Below are positions 20,282 through 52,213 of a stretch of DNA of 64,000 nucleotides, piece by piece. The notes beneath the pieces were generated by a model. It saw nothing but the letters and a program-made list of their open reading frames with translations. It was not told where the DNA came from and did no database searches. Source of the DNA: Prasinococcaceae sp. CCMP 1430 (Eukaryota; Prasinodermophyta; Palmophyllophyceae; Prasinococcales; Prasinococcaceae); the NCBI GenBank assembly GCA_013416795.1, contig RQSC01000033.1:98944-162943 (forward strand), in the 5' to 3' direction. The position numbers and the translations under genes are program-made. Numbering within the stretch: the stretch's first letter is position 1; each line of letters opens with the position of its first letter.

Positions 20282-21455
20282 ATGGCCGCCATCACCTCCT
20301 CCTTCATGGGCGCCGCCGTGCAGGCCAAGGCCGTGCGCAAGGCGCAGGCCTCGAAGCAGCTCGCCGTGCGCGCCGACATCTACCCGGTGCGTCGAGCGGC
20401 CGCGCGAGCGCTTGCGCGGGCGGGCATGTGAGCGCGGCGCGCACGAGTCGGGAAGGGGATGGGGGAGCGCGCAGGCGAGCGGCGGCGCTGCGGAGCGCGG
20501 CACGCGCGCGCAGCTGTCGCGGCCATCGCGGCTGGCGCCCGCCATTGGGCTGGGCTGCTAGAGCGCCACTCGGATGCGCGCCGGTGCAAGGCTTGGCGGC
20601 GCAATCGATGGCTGTGGCGCGCGGGCCCGCCAACGCCGCTCGCGCTCGCTCGCTGGTGCCACAGCCGCGATCGACGCGAGGCCCGACGGCCCCGACGGCG
20701 CGCATCGCCGCTTTTGCGCGTGGGACACTCGGCCCGACCGTGACCGCGCGGCGTGCCTGGCACCGCCTCGCCGCTCCCCTCTCCGGCGTGCAAAAGTGTG
20801 CTGCAATCAATCGGGCGCTGACTCCCCCGCCCTCTTCCGCGCCCCCTCGCAGGAGTTCGGCACGTACCCGGGCGGCGGCGAGTCGCCGATCATGCCCTTC
20901 TCGGAGGAGAAGAACGCCGAGCGCGAGATCATCCACGGCCGCTTCGCCATGCTCGGCGTGACCGGCGCGTGGGCGTCGGAGAACGGCACCGGCATCCCCT
21001 GGTTCGAGGCGGGCGCCCTGTGCACCCCCGACGACTGCACCGCCATCGCGGACAAGTTCCCGGGCGCCGTCGCGCCGCTGGCCCCGGAGGGCTCCGGCTA
21101 CCCGTCGTTCGCGGCCGTGCTGGGCATTGAGATCGTCCTCATGGGCCTGGCCGAGGGCTACCGCACCGGCGTGGTGGACCCGGCGTTCGACGAGCTCACC
21201 GTCGGCGACGCCAACCCGGGCGGCCGCTTCGACCCCCTCAACCTGTCGGAGTCGAACGACCTCGAGGAGCTGAAGATCAAGGAGCTCAAGCACTGCCGCC
21301 TCGCCATGTTCGCGTGGAACGGCTGCATCAACCAGGCCATCGTCACCAAGGAGGGCCCCATCGCCAACTGGTCCGCGCACGTCGCCGACCCCATCCACGA
21401 GAACATCATGGCGCCGGGCTTCTGCAAGGACTTCACCCTGTACTGCATCCACTAA
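20282..21455 (+). CDS. Light-harvesting chlorophyll-binding (LHC superfamily) protein
   Basis: Exons 20282-20386 and 20853-21455 (intron 20387-20852, GTGCGT donor, CCCTCGCAG acceptor, phase 0) give 235 residues. The first 31 residues are a typical chloroplast transit peptide (Ala/Ser/Lys-rich, ending 'LAVRA'). The mature protein has the two LHC motif helices: 'AEREIIHGRFAMLGVTGAW' and 'LKIKELKHCRLAMFAWNG', with the E/R and H/N side chains that bind chlorophyll and lock the helices. A middle helix 'LGIEIVLMGLAEGYRTG' lies between them. It would insert in the thylakoid membrane as an antenna. Two clustered cysteine pairs ('ALCTPDDC' and the C-terminal 'CKDFTLYCIH') are unusual in plant LHCs. 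I cannot place it firmly as Lhca, Lhcb or a prasinophyte-specific type. Confidence 0.93.
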
Positions 21456-43574: not shown

Positions 43575-43956
43575 CGCCGCCGCGCCGCGCCGGTGCGGCG
43601 GCGAGCGCGCGCGGTGTGTCCGGGCGCCGGCGGCGCCACCCCACGCACGCCCTCGCACCGCCCACGATGCGCGAAAACGCCCGAAGGCATACTGAGCTCG
43701 TCCTGCGGACAGGCCGCCACCGAAATTGCTGCCGTTTTTTGCGTTTTTTATGGGGCGCGATCTGCCATTTCGGTTTGATATCCGCCGGCAGCGCGGCCGC
43801 GCGCGTTTCGCGTGCCTCTGGGTGTTGACGCGGTGCCCCTGGACGGGTGCGTGCGAGCGTCGGCAGGGTGGAGTTGGGGGTTGGGTGGGTGGCCGGGGAG
43901 GTGCCAGACAGCGCGCGTGAGGGGGCCTGAGAGGGGCCGCGGAAGGAGGACCGCGC

Positions 43957-45414
43957 TTGGAGAGGGGCGCTCGGCCCGCGCCGCGCCGCGCCGCGCCGCG
44001 CTGCGTGCAAGAGGTAGACGTGCGGCTGGGCGCGCTTGCGAGTGCAGTGCCCAAACTGCAGGAGGCGTGCACCACTTTCTCACAGGACGCGGCGGCAGTG
44101 GTGGCGCGGCGCAAGGCGAACAAGGCCGCGCTCTCTGCACACGGCACCTTGCTGGACTTGCTCGAGGCGCCGGCGCTCGTGGATACCTGCGTGCGCAACG
44201 GCTCGTTCGATGAGGCGCTCGATTTGGAGGCTTTCGTGTCCAAGGTGGCCGCCGTGCATGGCAACCTCTCGGTGGTCAGGAAGCTCAAGGAAGATGTTGC
44301 GCAAACGGCAGGCCAGATGCGCGAGCAGCTTCTGGGACGCCTACGCGGCAACGTGCAGCTTCCGGACTGCCTACGCGCGATTGGGTACCTGCGACGGCTT
44401 GGAGGGTTCTCAGAGGAGCAGTTGCGATTGGAGTTTCTGCGCTGCCGGGAGGCCTTCATCGCCGCGACCATCGAGGCTCTGGATCGCAGCTCGCCGTATG
44501 ACTTCTTGAAGCGCCTCACGGACGCGCATCGCGTGCACTTGTTCGATATCGTCATGCAGTATCGCGCGATATTTGCGGTGCAGGAGAGGGACGACGCGCA
44601 GGGCAAACACGAGGACGCTGGAGGCTCGTTCGGTGGCGATGCGCTGCTACTTAGCTGGGCCACGCGGCGCATCGACGCATACCTCGCCGAGCTGGCCGCC
44701 CTGCTTCCGCACATCGAGGACGGCGGCTCGCTTGCCAGCGTTCTCGAGCACTGCATGTACTGCGGAATGAGCCTGGGCAGGGTCGGGTTGGATTTTCGTG
44801 GCCTTCTCCCGCCGCCCTTCGAGGAGTGCTCAAAGGCCATGTTCACGGATGGCATCAACGCGGCCGCGGCGGCCTTCGACGATGCCTTGCAGACGCACCG
44901 CTGGGTGGCACTGCCCGCCATGGCAGCGGCCACGAGCCGCGTCGTTGCGACCAAGGCCGCCACAGGTGGGAGTGAGGGCGGCAGCGATGTGGCTGCGCAT
45001 TCCGGTGGTGCCGACGGCGGGCCTCCATACGCTCTGATGGCTCACCCTCCTCTGGCCTCGTTTGTCAACGGAGGCCTGGCCTCCCTGAATGAGCTGAGGC
45101 ATTGCGCTCCGCCGAGCTTACAGAAGCCGCTGAGTGCCGAGCTGGGCAAGGCCATACAGTTCGTGGTGGATTCGTTGGCGAGGTATCAGGCAGCACGATC
45201 GCTGCAGGGCGAGCAGCTAGCGCTCTTCGGCGCGATGGCGAGCGCGCTCGCCGACGTGGCGGCCCCGTACTTGCAGGCGTGCTTCGCGCGCGTCTTCAAC
45301 ACAGACGGAGTGGTGCCCCCCGTTGCTGCCCGAGCGGGCGCCAAAGATGGCCCGATCGCCGCCGCCGCCGCCGCCGCGCGCTCGCTCGCAGCTTCGGTGA
45401 GCCCCGATGCCTAA
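43957..45414 (+). CDS. COG8: COG8 (Dor1), conserved oligomeric Golgi complex subunit 8; N-terminus unresolved
   Basis: The frame holds the COG8 core: 'LLDLLEAPALVDTCVRNGSF', 'LRGNVQLPDCLRAIGYLRRL', 'RVHLFDIVMQYRAIFAVQE', and 'LEHCMYCGMSLGRVGLDFRG'. COG8 is part of lobe B of the tethering complex for retrograde vesicles within the Golgi. There is no in-frame ATG before residue 118 of the frame, and about 70-100 N-terminal residues of the family ('Y...EL' helix region) are missing. A first exon must therefore lie upstream, probably in 43575-43956, with an acceptor near 43985-44010; I could not identify it. The C-terminal 150 residues are Ala/Gly-rich with 'AHPPLASFVNGGLASLNELR', a recognisable late COG8 segment. 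It shares a 380-base upstream region with V-ATPase H. Confidence 0.9.
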   Translation: MERGARPAPRRAAPRCVQEVDVRLGALASAVPKLQEACTTFSQDAAAVVARRKANKAALSAHGTLLDLLEAPALVDTCVRNGSFDEALDLEAFVSKVAAVHGNLSVVRKLKEDVAQTAGQMREQLLGRLRGNVQLPDCLRAIGYLRRLGGFSEEQLRLEFLRCREAFIAATIEALDRSSPYDFLKRLTDAHRVHLFDIVMQYRAIFAVQERDDAQGKHEDAGGSFGGDALLLSWATRRIDAYLAELAALLPHIEDGGSLASVLEHCMYCGMSLGRVGLDFRGLLPPPFEECSKAMFTDGINAAAAAFDDALQTHRWVALPAMAAATSRVVATKAATGGSEGGSDVAAHSGGADGGPPYALMAHPPLASFVNGGLASLNELRHCAPPSLQKPLSAELGKAIQFVVDSLARYQAARSLQGEQLALFGAMASALADVAAPYLQACFARVFNTDGVVPPVAARAGAKDGPIAAAAAAARSLAASVSPDA

Positions 45415-45737
45415 TAGCGCGTAATGGGAGTGTGTATGATAATGGCAAATTCCACGTCATTGGTGGTTGCGGAGCCAGAGCTTGCCTCCTTGGTCCATCA
45501 GCGCTTCTGTCGCATGGTCTAGGCGCTCCGGCGCCGCCTCTGCAGCCAGTCGAGGAGGAGGTCTGAGTAGGCGTGGTTCCGGGTAAGCTTTAGGGTATAG
45601 GGTTTACTGTATTACCACCTGTACCTGATGCATGGTGAAAACGTAAGCGGAAGCGAGCTCGATCGGCGAAGGGGCAACGCGAGGCGCGCCCGTTCGCTGG
45701 GAGCTTATCTGCTCGCGGCCGCGCCGCGGGGGCGAGC
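45415..45737. other. Intergenic region between COG8 and the GIY-YIG/methyltransferase gene
   Basis: It includes the COG8 3' end, an AT-richer patch with a telo-box at 45598-45605, and a possible first exon of the next gene (ATGs at 45628 and 45632 followed by a GTAAGC donor-like site at 45641). Confidence 0.45.
45598..45605 (-). promoter_or_regulatory. Telo-box motif upstream of the methyltransferase fusion gene
   Basis: TAGGGTTT on the plus strand, third exact copy in the window, about 140 bases before the open frame of the following gene. Confidence 0.3.
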
Positions 45738-47195
45738 GTGGCGTGGCGAGGCTCCAGCGCCACAGCGGGGGCCGCGCGCGCCCGGCAGCCTCGCGAGGCC
45801 GGCGCCGGGGACGCCAGCCCAGGCGGCGGCGACGCCAGCGGCGAGCGCATAGACCTGCGCACGCCCGACGGCGGCGCGCCTGCGGCGCCGGCGGCTGCAG
45901 GAGTGTACGTCGTCCTTGACGATGCTGGCGCTACGCAGTACGTGGGTATGTCGCGGAATCTGCGCGCGACGCTCGCAGCGCACGCCGCGGAGCTCCCCGA
46001 GGTCGCCGCGAGCGCGTCCCTTTCGCCGATGCCTGCGGCCACGAAGGACCAGCTCGTCGCCGCGTGGAAGCGCGGGCTCGCAGCGCAAATCAAAGAGAGC
46101 GGCGCGCTGCCGCCGGGCAATGCCAAGGGCGCGCCGGCGGCGTGGGCGAAGCCAAACACAGGCGCCGCAGCTGCCGCCCGGCGAGCGCTCTCTAGCCCCC
46201 GCACAGGCAGCAGCAGCGGCGATGTAGAGGCCGAGGCGGTTGCCGCCTGGCGCGCTGCGCCGGCCGCAGAGCGCAGGCGCGCGGCCAAGGCTGCGCTTGA
46301 GGCGGACGCGTCTGACGCCGAGGCAGCATTTGCGCTCTACGAAGCGGAGGACGAGCTTGGTGATGGCGACGCTGCTGTCGCTGCGCTGCGCGCGGCGCTC
46401 GCAGCCGACCCGTCGCACGCGGCAGCAGCGCGGCTGCTCGCGGCCGCGGAGGGCGGGGCTGATGCCGCCTCTGCGGCGGCGAACGATGCCGCCGGTGCCG
46501 CGGAGTACGCGCGTCAGATATTTGATGGCTACGCCACTACGTTCGACGAGCATCTGACCGGCACCCTCAAGTACAGCGTGCCCAAGGAACTCGCGCTCGC
46601 CGCAGACGCGGCCAGCGGCGGGGGGCGTAGCGGCGTCGACCCGCCGCGATACGCGTGCATCGTCGACGCCGGCTGTGGCACGGGCCTCAGCGTGGAACCT
46701 TTCGCTGGCCGCGCCGACAGCGTGATCGGCATCGACGTGAGCTCGAAGATGCTCGAGGTTGCGCGCGGCAAGGGGCTGTATTCTACGCTTCTATGCGATG
46801 ACCTGGTCTCTGGCCTCGCGACGCTCGCTCAAGGGCAGTGCGACCTGATAATCTCGGCCGACACACTCATGTACGTCGGGCGGCTCGACGGGTTTTTCGA
46901 ACAGGCCGAGCGAGTGCTGGCGAGCGGCGGCGTGCTCGCTTTCAGCGTAGAGAGCGCGGAGAGGGCGACTTCGCAGGGGGATGCCGGCAGCGTGGCGCTA
47001 GGCGAGGATGGCATCGGGCTGCAGCCGAGCGGGCGCTTCTGCCACACGCGCGGATACGTGGAAGGCCTGGCGGCGCGGTCAGGCGATGGCGATGGAGGAG
47101 CGTGGGAGACCGCCGCCGAGCCGCGAGACGTGATGGGGCGCATGGACGGCGACAAGCCAGTGTATGCCACTCTGCATGTGTTCGTGAGGCGGTGA
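45738..47195 (+). CDS. GIY-YIG-like / TPR / methyltransferase fusion protein
   Basis: The 485-codon frame has three parts. Residues about 54-130 resemble a GIY-YIG fold: 'GVYVVLDDAGATQYVGMSRN', with the GVY and YVG strands in correct spacing and the Arg of 'SRNLRA'. Residues about 185-250 are Ala-rich helices of TPR type ('EAAFALYEAEDELGDGDAAV'). Residues about 255-485 are a class I SAM methyltransferase of the TPR-linked bacterial type: 'QIFDGYATTFDEHLTGTLKY', motif I 'CIVDAGCGTGLSVEPFAG', 'VIGIDVSSKMLEVARGKGLY', 'DLIISADTLMYVGRLDGFFE'. Substrate unknown. Whether the nuclease fold is active is doubtful, since the usual late Glu/Asn are not evident. The frame opens without an ATG, so a first exon (perhaps encoding a transit peptide) is missing. 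It is convergent with the thylakoid-protein gene, about 60 bases apart. Confidence 0.75.
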   Translation: MAWRGSSATAGAARARQPREAGAGDASPGGGDASGERIDLRTPDGGAPAAPAAAGVYVVLDDAGATQYVGMSRNLRATLAAHAAELPEVAASASLSPMPAATKDQLVAAWKRGLAAQIKESGALPPGNAKGAPAAWAKPNTGAAAAARRALSSPRTGSSSGDVEAEAVAAWRAAPAAERRRAAKAALEADASDAEAAFALYEAEDELGDGDAAVAALRAALAADPSHAAAARLLAAAEGGADAASAAANDAAGAAEYARQIFDGYATTFDEHLTGTLKYSVPKELALAADAASGGGRSGVDPPRYACIVDAGCGTGLSVEPFAGRADSVIGIDVSSKMLEVARGKGLYSTLLCDDLVSGLATLAQGQCDLIISADTLMYVGRLDGFFEQAERVLASGGVLAFSVESAERATSQGDAGSVALGEDGIGLQPSGRFCHTRGYVEGLAARSGDGDGGAWETAAEPRDVMGRMDGDKPVYATLHVFVRR

Positions 47196-48887: not shown

Positions 48888-48898
48888 GCGAGACAGAG

Positions 48899-51800
48899 AT
48901 GATGGCGATGCGCCTCGAGGGCGGCGCCGGCGACGCGTGCGCGGCCGCGGCGCTCGTGGCCGCGGCGATGAACGGCCTCAGCCTCGAGGACGCGACCGCC
49001 ACGGGGGCAGCGTGCGCGCTCGTCGCGGGCGGCGAGACCCTCGCTGAGGGATCTGCGGCGGCAGCCAAGTACGTCGCCGGCGCGGTGGCCAGCGAGTTCT
49101 ACCCCACGGGCCCCAAGCGCGCCGAGGTCGACGCGTGGGTCGACGCGGCGGCTGCGGGCGACGCCGCGGCGCTGCTCGCCAAGGCCGAGGCCGCCCTCGC
49201 GGAGCGCACGTACCTGGTGGGCGACTGCGCGACGCTCGCCGACGCCGCGGTCGCGGCGGCGCTTTCGGGCGCCAACATGGGCGCCGCCCCCAGCGCCGCG
49301 CGCTGGCTCAACACTGTCTCGCCGCAGCTCGAGACCGCGCGCGCGGGCGCCGCTGCGGCGGTCGACGACAAGGGCTGGCCCGCCAAGCGCGTGCGCGACA
49401 CCTTCGTGGACTTCTTCGCCGAGAAGAAGGGCCACACCAGGTGGCCGTCGTCGCCGGTGGTGCCCCTGGACGACCCGACGCTGCTGTTCACGAACGCCGG
49501 CATGAACCAGTACAAGCCGATCTTCCTCGGCAAGGCCGACCCCAAGACCGACCTGGCGAAGCTCACGCGCGCCACCAACACGCAGAAGTGCATCCGCGCC
49601 GGCGGCAAGCACAATGACCTCGATGACGTGGGCAAGGACACGTACCACCACACGTTCTTCGAGATGCTCGGCAACTGGTCGTTCGGCGACTACTTCAAGC
49701 GCGAGGCCATCACGTGGGCGTGGGAGCTGCTCACCGAGGTGTACAAGCTCGACCCGGAGCGCCTGTACGCGACGTACTTCGGCGGCGACGAGTCGCAGGG
49801 CCTGCCGCCCGATGATGAGGCCAAGGCCATCTGGCTCGAGGTGCTGCCGGCGCACCGCGTGATGCCCTTCGACTGCAAGGACAACTTCTGGGAGATGGGT
49901 GACGTCGGCCCGTGCGGCCCGTGCACGGAGATCCACTACGACCGCATCGGTGGCCGCCAGGTGCCCGAGCTGGTCAACATGGACGACCCGGACCTCATCG
50001 AGATCTGGAACAACGTGTTCATCCAGTTCAACCGCGAGAAGGACGGCGAGCTGCGCCCGCTGCCCGCAAAGCACGTCGACACGGGCATGGGCTTCGAGCG
50101 CATCACCTCCATCCTGCAGGACAAGCCCTCCAACTACGACACCGACGTGTTCACGCCGCTGTTCGATGCCATCCAGGCGTCGACTGGCGCGCGCGCGTAC
50201 GCGGGCAAGCTCGGCGACGAGGACGTGGGCAACGTGGACATGGCGTACCGCGTGGTGGCGGACCACATCCGCACGATCACCTTCGCCATCGCCGACGGCG
50301 CGCGCCCCGGCAGCGACGGCCGCAACTACGTGCTGCGCCGCGTGCTGCGCCGCGCCGTGCGCTACGGCCGCGAGGTGCTGAACGCGAAGGAGGGCTTCTT
50401 CTCCAAGCTGGTGGGCACCGTGGTGGCCACGATGGGCGATGTTTTCCCAGAGATCGTTCGGGAGCAGGCCAACATCGAGGAGATCATCGCCGAGGAGGAG
50501 GCCTCGTTCGGGCGCACGCTCGTCAAGGGCTGCGAGCGCTTCGCCTCGGTTGCCAAGAGCGTCAAGGCCGCGGGCGGCGAGCTGGTGTCGGGCGAGGACG
50601 CCTTCCTGCTCTGGGACACCTTCGGGTTCCCGGTGGACCTCACCCAGCTCATGGCCGAGGAGAAGGGGCTGAACGTGGACATGGATGGCTTCAATGCGAC
50701 CATGGAGGCGGCCAAGGAGCGCTCGCGCGCCGCGCGCAAGGCGGGCGCCGTCGAGCTCAAGATGGAGGCCGAGGCCACCGCGGCGCTCAAGGACATGGGC
50801 GTGCTGCCGACGGACGACGCGCACAAGTACGGCGCCACCGGCAAGGTCGGAGGCGTGGTCAAGGCGGTGTACACCACGAAGGGCTTCGTCAAGTCCACCG
50901 CGGAGGTGGAGGAGGGCGCACCGCTCGGCCTCGTGCTCGACAAGACCGCGTGCTACGCCGAGCAGGGTGGTCAGATCTTCGACACGGGCGCCATCAAGGC
51001 GCCCGGTGGCGCCGAGTTCACCGTGGTCGACGTGCAGGTGGCGGCGGGCTTTGTGCTGCACATTGGCAGCGTCAAGGGCGCTTTCGCCGTCGGCGACGCC
51101 GTGGAGGTCGAGGTGGACATGGAGCGCCGCGCGCTGGTGACGCCCAACCACACCTGCACGCATTCGCTCAACTTGGCGCTGCGTGAGGTGCTGGGTGACC
51201 ACGTTCAGCAGAAGGGATCGCTCGTGACCGCGGAGCGCCTGCGCTTCGACTTCAACCACCCCAAGCCCGTGACGCCCGCGGAGCTGGAGAAGGTCGAGGG
51301 GATCGTGCGCAAGGCCATCGCCGACAAGCTTCCGGTGTACGCCAAGGAGACGCCGCTGGAGGACGCCAGGGCCATCAGCGGCCTGCGCGCGGTCTTCGGC
51401 GAGACCTACCCCGACCCCGTCCGCGTGGTGTCGGTGGGTGCGTCCGTGGAGGAGCTGCTGGCGGCGCCGGGCGACAGCAAGTGGACGCAGCTGTCCATCG
51501 AGTTCTGCGGCGGAACGCATCTGAGCAACACATCGGAGGCCGAGGCCTTCGCCCTCGTGCAGGAGGAGGGCACGGCCAAGGGCATCCGCCGCGTGCTGGC
51601 GGTGACGCGCGACGCCGCCAAGAAGGCGATCGCCACGGGCGAGGAGTTCACCAAGCGCGTGGAGGCCGCCAAGAAGCTCGCGCCCAAGGAGATGGACAAG
51701 GAGAGCACGGCCATCCAGCGCGAGCTGCCCGAGGCCGTCATGCCGTGCGCGGCGCGCGCGGTCGTCGTGGCGGGCGTCGCCGAGCTCAAGAAGAAGCTCA

Positions 51801-52213
51801 TCGCCGCGTCCAAGAAGGCCGGCGGCGCCAACAAGGAGAAGGCGATCGGCGAGGTTCGCGACGCGGTGGCCGCCGCCGGCGGCGCGCCCTTCGTGGTCGT
51901 GCGGTCGGAGATCGGCCTCGAGACCGCCGCATTCAAGGAGGCGGTGGACGCCGAGGGCGTCAAGAAGGGCGTGGCCGTCATGATCGTGTCGTCGGACGCC
52001 GCCAAGGGGCGAGTGCTCGCGTACTGCGGCGTGCCCAAGGACGTCGAGGCCAAGGGCCTCGACGCGCTCGGCTGGCTCAAGGCCACGTGCGTGCCCATCG
52101 GCGGCAAGGGCGGCGGTGGCAAGAACGGCGTCGCGCAGGGGCAGGGCGGCAACATCGATGGCGCTGCCGAGGCCGCCGCCGAGGCCACCAAGTACGCGCA
52201 GGGCAAGCTGTAA
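48899..52213 (+). CDS. AARS: Alanyl-tRNA synthetase with GST-like N-terminal extension
   Basis: A single exon of 1,104 residues (human 968, E. coli 876). Residues about 1-150 are not part of standard AlaRS. They look like a GST fold, with 'LVAGGETLAEGSAAAAKYVA' and the GST-C pattern 'WVDAA...LLAKAEAALAERTYLVGDCATLADAAVAAAL'. The class II catalytic domain starts at about residue 158 ('RVRDTFVDFFAEKKGHTRWP') and includes 'LFTNAGMNQYKPIFLG', 'HHTFFEMLGNWSFGDYFKRE' and 'HVDTGMGFERI'. The editing domain keeps its zinc ligands: HTCTH (His751, His755) and CGGTH (Cys870, His874). The C-Ala domain follows. It charges tRNA-Ala; no transit peptide is obvious, so it is probably cytosolic. GST-like domains on other synthetases mediate multi-synthetase or EF1 complexes. 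The start ATGATGGCGATG offers three in-frame ATGs. Confidence 0.96.
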   Translation: MMAMRLEGGAGDACAAAALVAAAMNGLSLEDATATGAACALVAGGETLAEGSAAAAKYVAGAVASEFYPTGPKRAEVDAWVDAAAAGDAAALLAKAEAALAERTYLVGDCATLADAAVAAALSGANMGAAPSAARWLNTVSPQLETARAGAAAAVDDKGWPAKRVRDTFVDFFAEKKGHTRWPSSPVVPLDDPTLLFTNAGMNQYKPIFLGKADPKTDLAKLTRATNTQKCIRAGGKHNDLDDVGKDTYHHTFFEMLGNWSFGDYFKREAITWAWELLTEVYKLDPERLYATYFGGDESQGLPPDDEAKAIWLEVLPAHRVMPFDCKDNFWEMGDVGPCGPCTEIHYDRIGGRQVPELVNMDDPDLIEIWNNVFIQFNREKDGELRPLPAKHVDTGMGFERITSILQDKPSNYDTDVFTPLFDAIQASTGARAYAGKLGDEDVGNVDMAYRVVADHIRTITFAIADGARPGSDGRNYVLRRVLRRAVRYGREVLNAKEGFFSKLVGTVVATMGDVFPEIVREQANIEEIIAEEEASFGRTLVKGCERFASVAKSVKAAGGELVSGEDAFLLWDTFGFPVDLTQLMAEEKGLNVDMDGFNATMEAAKERSRAARKAGAVELKMEAEATAALKDMGVLPTDDAHKYGATGKVGGVVKAVYTTKGFVKSTAEVEEGAPLGLVLDKTACYAEQGGQIFDTGAIKAPGGAEFTVVDVQVAAGFVLHIGSVKGAFAVGDAVEVEVDMERRALVTPNHTCTHSLNLALREVLGDHVQQKGSLVTAERLRFDFNHPKPVTPAELEKVEGIVRKAIADKLPVYAKETPLEDARAISGLRAVFGETYPDPVRVVSVGASVEELLAAPGDSKWTQLSIEFCGGTHLSNTSEAEAFALVQEEGTAKGIRRVLAVTRDAAKKAIATGEEFTKRVEAAKKLAPKEMDKESTAIQRELPEAVMPCAARAVVVAGVAELKKKLIAASKKAGGANKEKAIGEVRDAVAAAGGAPFVVVRSEIGLETAAFKEAVDAEGVKKGVAVMIVSSDAAKGRVLAYCGVPKDVEAKGLDALGWLKATCVPIGGKGGGGKNGVAQGQGGNIDGAAEAAAEATKYAQGKL

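Follow-up and report, generated by a model that had tools for sequence, protein, structure and literature searches.

The window analysed here, a stretch of 64,000 nucleotides from contig RQSC01000033.1 of the green alga Prasinococcaceae sp. CCMP 1430, contains a plus-strand open frame in which a preliminary description, made from the letters alone, saw a GIY-YIG-like domain, a TPR segment and a complete class I methyltransferase (MTase) joined in one chain, possibly an organelle protein that uses a degenerate nuclease fold to recognise a nucleic acid or protein, which it would methylate. This arrangement raises the questions of whether the three parts belong to one protein, where each of them comes from and what a nuclease-like domain might do for a methyltransferase. 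The algal genome searched comprises 24.5 Mb in 145 contigs, and the GC content of the window is 65-74% in 28 of its 32 two-kilobase stretches.

Results

One open frame spans the three parts

The plus-strand frame from 45639 to 47195 is free of stops across the GIY-YIG-like, TPR-type and class I MTase parts (Table 1), and no run of N occurs between 45415 and 47195; as neither a stop nor a gap interrupts the joint, the frame is most simply read as coding for a single chain. An MTase gene standing on its own is unlikely, because the stretch from residue 131 to residue 371 offers no in-frame Met and the first exon of such a gene would have to be hidden. The single three-part frame of the preliminary description therefore stands, given this uninterrupted frame and the homology of its parts. 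Upstream, the frame of a COG8-like neighbour ends 224 bases before the fusion frame.

Because the earliest in-frame ATG does not lie before 45948 and the homology of the GIY-YIG-like domain begins upstream of that position, a first exon is missing from the frame, and the gene would be read from one spliced transcript. By codon scores, the frame is favoured from near 45780 as far as its stop codon, and the signal dips at 46140-46230; the scores were trained on an alanyl-tRNA synthetase gene of the window, the COG8 gene and the MTase end (46500-47195), so over 46500-47195 they are partly circular. Between 45645 and 45780, none of the three plus-strand frames carries a coding-like signal in these scores. 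A candidate first exon with an ATG at 45628 and GTAAGC at 45643 could splice in phase to an acceptor that ends at 45788, and is one of 16 models with a donor-like site among the 152 single-intron models listed. The Ala/Pro-rich linker may also contain a small in-frame intron, as a GT at 46142 and AGs ending at 46195, 46210, 46213 or 46216 would give intron lengths divisible by 3.

Table 1. Features of the fusion locus and its upstream neighbour, in window positions
Feature	Position	Strand	Basis or remark
COG8/Dor1-like Golgi tethering subunit, upstream neighbour	43921..45414	+	stop-to-stop frame; PF04124 E 2.6e-70
Hypothetical first exon (ATG, then GTAAGC donor)	45628..45642	+	candidate only
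Fusion open frame	45639..47195	+	518 codons and stop; 5' end without start ATG
GIY-YIG-like domain, GRXS16 type (residues 79-164)	45873..46130	+	2LWF E 7.7e-14; shuffles; profile link
Ala/Pro-rich linker	46131..46223	+	codon score dip; GT..AG pairs
TPR-type helical segment (residues 196-281)	46224..46481	+	alignment with bacterial TPR-MTases; model helices
Class I SAM-dependent MTase (residues 284-518)	46488..47192	+	Pfam, invariant columns, fold matches
MTase motif I	46665-46685	+	

A GRXS16-type domain at the N-terminus

When the whole fusion was compared with the PDB, its best match (among the best 60 of 79) was 2LWF, the N-terminal domain of chloroplast GRXS16, at E 7.7e-14. The GIY-YIG match scores 169, as against 24.9 +/- 4.2 in 2000 shuffles, none of which scored as high, and as against 16-39 for the other five frames. 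In addition, hhalign links the domain profile to UvrC and DnaQ-GIY segments (probability 94.2%, 38 columns), and the GIY-YIG relationship suspected from the letters is thus supported. A search with profile A2 returned 2LWF as the only match below E 1, which it does by construction, since A2 includes the 2LWF stretch. The general Pfam GIY-YIG model falls below its cut-off on the fusion (13.1 of 22.6 bits) and is likewise weak on the alga's own GRXS16 (14.6 bits); no glutaredoxin match was found by Pfam within the 518 residues of the fusion. Because the nearest solved relative of the domain is chloroplast GRXS16, it is plausible by analogy that the fusion is an organelle protein, as had been proposed, and its putative location would be the plastid.

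Alignment of the fusion, 2LWF and the alga's own GRXS16 yields 22 invariant columns and 38% identity between the fusion and the GRXS16 domain; P, GVY, Q.VG, SR, H and PPGN are kept in the fusion. Active GIY-YIG nucleases use Arg, Glu and Asn as catalytic residues. In the ungapped alignment, the fusion reads Ala-Gln where 2LWF and the alga's GRXS16 have Glu-His, 12 and 11 residues before the Asn. By counting along the sequences, a Glu also stands 12 residues before the Asn of the L016 UvrC and the L040 DnaQ-GIY proteins, which suggests that the Ala in the fusion marks a lost metal ligand and that the Glu replaced there may be the catalytic one; this column lies in a gapped region of the MAFFT alignment with UvrC and hhalign stopped before it, so the equivalence rests on counting from the Asn. 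The degenerate nuclease fold of the preliminary description is likely but not proven: the Glu of GRXS16 is replaced, whereas the Tyr, Tyr, Arg and Asn positions of the GIY-YIG domain are all present.

According to a review (PMC5890173), the GRXS16 domain cuts DNA and its Cys123 may pair with Cys219 of the glutaredoxin as a disulfide. In the fusion, the first Cys stands at residue 340; the domain thus lacks the redox Cys of GRXS16, presumably the counterpart of Cys123, and a disulfide like that of GRXS16 cannot form, which counts against redox control in the GRXS16 style. In the predicted full-chain model, residues 81-160, for which the alignment held no homologues, have a pLDDT of 43-69 by 10-residue block, and the domain modelled alone, again with no homologues in the alignment, has a mean pLDDT of 44. 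The strand-strand-helix order of this low-pLDDT part fits a GIY-YIG domain, the fold that the preliminary description expected in residues 54-130 of its own numbering.

The 2LWF stretch finds at least three places in the algal genome, namely a GRXS16 gene on contig C1, the window gene and a protein on contig C59. The C1 gene is a separate one in which GIY-YIG is joined to Grx (PF00462 E 1.1e-16 once two exons had been joined manually). Its first coding stretch (L003 2894-3352) is without an in-frame ATG, and an adjacent frame has a start resembling a transit peptide, MSSVARASRARAHAAVRA; the cause would be an intron or an assembly slip. The third GRXS16-type protein (L138 1400-1987; G000 C59:234199 onward) matches 2LWF at E 1.1e-6 and the domain profile at 96% (hhalign), and has no Pfam match over cut-off, its C-terminal part included. 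A PF01541 search of the genome gave four other GIY-YIG places. PF01106 is found in two pieces, which we read as one mitochondrial-type NFU with its N-domain (L094, G000 C144); none of the at least three places found with the 2LWF stretch lies on C144.

The C-terminal half is a TPR-methyltransferase

Among the segments named in the preliminary description, the MTase passes its Pfam cut-off (residues 342-435, Methyltransf_11, E 2.7e-15), whereas the GIY-YIG model, as noted above, and the TPR model (TPR_14, 14.6 of 23.5 bits, E 0.054) do not. The TPR assignment is made despite this score, on the homology to bacterial TPR-MTases and on the helices of the model (pLDDT 88-97 from residue 201). In the fusion, the TPR helices directly before the MTase, the LFDxYAxxFD..L region and the DxGCGTGL motif are all of the alphaproteobacterial TPR-MTase type. 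Alignment A3 has 46 members, the fusion among them, and 18 invariant columns, each of which the fusion shares; together with the Pfam match, this confirms the earlier reading of a complete class I MTase with motif I, the SAM-binding core of which is intact as judged from its residues.

In the full-chain model, residues 201-518 have a pLDDT of 79-98 by 10-residue block. Among the best 50 of 1850 Foldseek matches are UbiG, METTL6, a phosphatidylethanolamine MTase, WBSCR27 and others, which by their titles are class I MTases or proteins of the MTase fold; SpnF, titled a cyclase, has this fold as well. No GIY-YIG structure is among these best 50. By sequence, the best solved relative of the MTase half in the PDB (best 60 of 79) is METTL27/WBSCR27 (7QCB), at E 5.3e-7. 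The motif IV of nucleic-acid base amino-MTases is [DNS]PP[YFW]. This motif is absent from the fusion MTase, the motif IV region of which reads SADTLMYVG, so methylation of a base amino group is unlikely.

Bacterial relatives of the methyltransferase half

A tblastn search of plasmids returned 494 records, 403 of them from Enterococcus, and the best among the 40 listed are alphaproteobacterial, with S. meliloti at E 4e-24. Nine plasmid relatives align with the TPR-MTase half at 25-38% identity (S. meliloti 38%; in this alignment, A1, L007 and L008 are cut at a later Met), and SSGD before the TPR segment is common to five of the nine. Conversely, when the algal genome is searched with the S. meliloti protein, the window gene is matched at E 3.1e-30 and the next match is at 5.1e-4. 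A scan of genome contigs confirmed at least 417 loci, of which 80 were kept; all 80 entered the tree and the neighbourhood count, 45 of them and the alga make up alignment A3, which was used for the model, and domain scans covered six of the bacterial proteins.

In the tree of the 80 loci and the window gene, the alga stands beside, and outside, a clade of 35 Rhizobiales-type alphaproteobacterial loci, with a support of 91/93 for the group of 36 that is below the star threshold and comes from a bootstrap that had not settled. The algal branch is long (1.33). An old bacterial or mitochondrial origin of the TPR-MTase half would fit this position.

The TPR-MTase profile also found 25 loci in viral contigs, the best at 30% identity and E 1e-13; the same contigs gave no relative with the full fusion protein and none with the GIY-YIG profile, and a search of plasmids with the GIY-YIG domain found nothing at E 1. 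The 89 bacterial and 25 viral-contig TPR-MTase loci yielded no GRXS16-type domain. Three of these loci match GIY-YIG at E <=1: two of them carry UvrC and DnaQ-GIY as genes of their own, and in L090 the match has E 0.76 over 26 residues.

The sister-clade genes often lie near DNA-repair genes

Clustering of the flanking ORFs of the 80 loci gave, among other families, an exonuclease, a ligase and a helicase. Their representatives score over the NCBIfam equivalog cut-offs of TIGR04122 (exonuclease, 466.7 of 325 bits), TIGR04120 (ligase, 821.9 of 400 bits) and TIGR04121 (DEXH helicase, 1104.4 of 850 bits), which together form the 'ligase-associated DNA damage response' set. By tblastn, at least one of the three genes lies near the TPR-MTase in 26 of the 35 sister-clade loci, compared with 0 of the 45 others; because no flank was longer than about 4 kb and several contigs stop before that, the first count is a lower bound and the second holds for the flanks examined. 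All three genes are present in 13 of the 35 loci, and 12 of these 13 share one order, in which the ligase and exonuclease, on the opposite strand, come before the MTase and the helicase, on the MTase strand, comes after it. Examples are L027 (1259-7322), in which the helicase match begins 5 bases after the last sense codon of the MTase, and L056 (1041-7342).

In nine of the 35 loci, none of the three genes was found within the flanks. A ten-locus Rhizobiaceae branch has the helicase only, 1.0-3.5 kb away, in eight loci and none of the genes in two, and in the S. meliloti record, which is outside the 35, a helicase is annotated downstream of the MTase with three genes between them. In a six-frame search of the algal genome, nothing scored above the TIGR04121 or TIGR04122 cut-offs, which algal genes split by introns might fail to reach in a search of this kind. 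We found no open literature linking the ligase-associated DNA damage response cluster with 'methyltransferase'. This neighbourhood, which is not part of the preliminary description, is the best lead to function and lends indirect support to a DNA-maintenance setting; it may also mirror a shared gene order without a shared function.

Discussion

Our preferred reading, which we hold tentatively and at slightly less than an even chance, is that one nuclear gene of this green alga encodes a single chain, composed of a GRXS16-type GIY-YIG-like domain followed by an alphaproteobacterial-type TPR-MTase, in which a non-cutting docking domain brings an active methyltransferase to a protein or small-molecule target. 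In this mechanism, the N-terminal domain would most likely have lost its cutting activity and serve for docking, and the SAM-dependent MTase that it brings to the target would methylate a group on a protein or a small molecule, not a nucleic-acid base, while the TPR helices may help to hold the substrate. The target would probably be a protein associated with organelle DNA or with the redox or Fe-S machinery of the plastid. Two lines point to DNA, namely the cleavage reported for GRXS16 together with the UvrC-like core and the repair neighbourhood of the bacterial relatives; one line, that of GRXS16 and NFU1, points to Fe-S or redox work.

Both halves of the fusion are known from other proteins, and the combination looks new as far as the open literature shows, since no GIY-YIG, TPR and MTase architecture was found in the literature searched. 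GRXS16 (GRX6 in Chlamydomonas; 2LWF) has the same N-terminal domain by sequence, with the GVY..VG..SR..PPGN pattern in common, but its partner is a CGFS glutaredoxin instead of a TPR-MTase, and its domain has a Cys and Glu-His where that of the fusion has no Cys and Ala-Gln. The GIY-YIG-NFU1 fusions described in a review (PMC8003979), from Chlamydomonas and other algae, are chloroplast proteins in which an N-terminal GIY-YIG is likewise joined to another module, in that case an Fe-S carrier domain; the one NifU gene found in our alga looks mitochondrial in type and is without GIY-YIG.

On the other side of the comparison, the alphaproteobacterial TPR-MTases, which we take to be COG4976, align with the fusion over both the TPR helices and the MTase, whereas no GRXS16-type domain was found in the 89 bacterial loci. 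To our knowledge, no function is known for this TPR-MTase family. METTL27/WBSCR27 is a related MTase with a chain of 240 residues, and we know of no TPR or GIY-YIG part in it. According to PMC9240639, this protein has no known substrate. A fusion of a COG4123-type class I MTase with an Slx1-like GIY-YIG nuclease in Lactobacillales, as presented in PMC1564403, likewise has GIY-YIG and a class I MTase in one chain; in contrast to the algal protein, it combines another GIY-YIG family with another MTase family, one with an NPPY motif, and has the MTase at the N-terminus.

Among the alternatives, a role in DNA repair is rather unlikely but has the most to be weighed. The GIY-YIG-like domain would attach to organelle DNA that is branched or damaged, where the MTase would methylate a repair protein and so keep a role of its bacterial relatives. 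The repair genes near the sister-clade MTases (at least one in 26 of 35 loci, the full set in 13), the tight spacing of MTase and helicase in L027, the profile link to UvrC and DnaQ-GIY segments and the DNA cleavage that the text of PMC5890173 reports for the GRXS16 domain are consistent with such a role. However, none of the three genes was found in the flanks of nine of the 35 loci, and a shared gene order does not by itself show a function; moreover, the literature search for the cluster and a methyltransferase drew a blank, the alga gave no over-cut-off six-frame match for the helicase and exonuclease families, and the organelle targeting of the fusion is only putative. A narrower version, in which a UvrC-fold, GRXS16-type DNA-binding module and a Rhizobiales-type repair-cluster MTase form an organelle DNA-maintenance methyltransferase that methylates a repair or nucleoid protein wherever the N-terminal domain lands, seems to us quite unlikely; if it were true, the TPR-MTase would be an unrecognised member of the bacterial ligase-exonuclease-helicase cluster. 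It is unlikely, too, that the domain serves as an adaptor of plastid Fe-S or redox proteins and the MTase modifies a partner there. The GIY-YIG-NFU1 fusions and the GIY-YIG domains of GRX6/GRXS16 in PMC8003979, together with the 2LWF match, would suit this idea, but the redox Cys is absent and the MTase half shows nothing that points to Fe-S proteins.

Two further explanations concern the integrity of the chain and the kind of reaction. It is very improbable that the frame unites two adjacent genes, or exons that belong to different transcripts, by coincidence or because of an artificial join in the assembly: the frame is without a start ATG and its coding score dips in the linker where GT..AG pairs occur, yet the same frame runs stop-free over the joint, no sequence gap interrupts it and a separate MTase gene would lack an in-frame Met from residue 131 to residue 371. 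We give hardly any weight to a working nuclease and methyltransferase in one chain, comparable to a restriction-modification pair. The Tyr, Tyr, Arg and Asn positions are present and the class I MTase-GIY-YIG nuclease fusion of Lactobacillales is in print (PMC1564403), but the fusion has no base-methylation motif, the relatives of its MTase are not DNA MTases by family or by fold titles, and the Glu of GRXS16 reads Ala.

With a glutaredoxin reported as partner of the GRXS16-type domain and NFU1 as that of a GIY-YIG domain, the TPR-MTase is a third, chemically different partner, which suggests a reusable adaptor and makes it possible to ask for its binding target independently of Fe-S chemistry. 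In addition, the bacterial TPR-MTase is frequently flanked by the exonuclease/ligase pair on one side and by the DEXH helicase on the other, which yields a direct and easily tested hypothesis, that of a role in the DNA damage response.

Other genes of the window

The alanyl-tRNA synthetase gene (48890-52210, plus strand) lies close to a run of N; its frame starts with a GST_C-like stretch (PF00043 E 1.9e-4, 22.1 of 20.7 bits), and the synthetase domain follows (tRNA-synt_2c E 4.2e-211). A chlorophyll a-b binding (LHC) gene lies at 20574-21455 on the plus strand, with its PF00504 match at C84:119853-120281, and is a sign of a phototroph. PF00504 gives 22 LHC matches in the algal genome; for two of these 22 proteins, compared with the PDB (best 60 of 438, with a query that included eight stray letters, and best 60 of 402), the top match is 9VFJ (LHCI), followed by chlorophyll a-b binding proteins.
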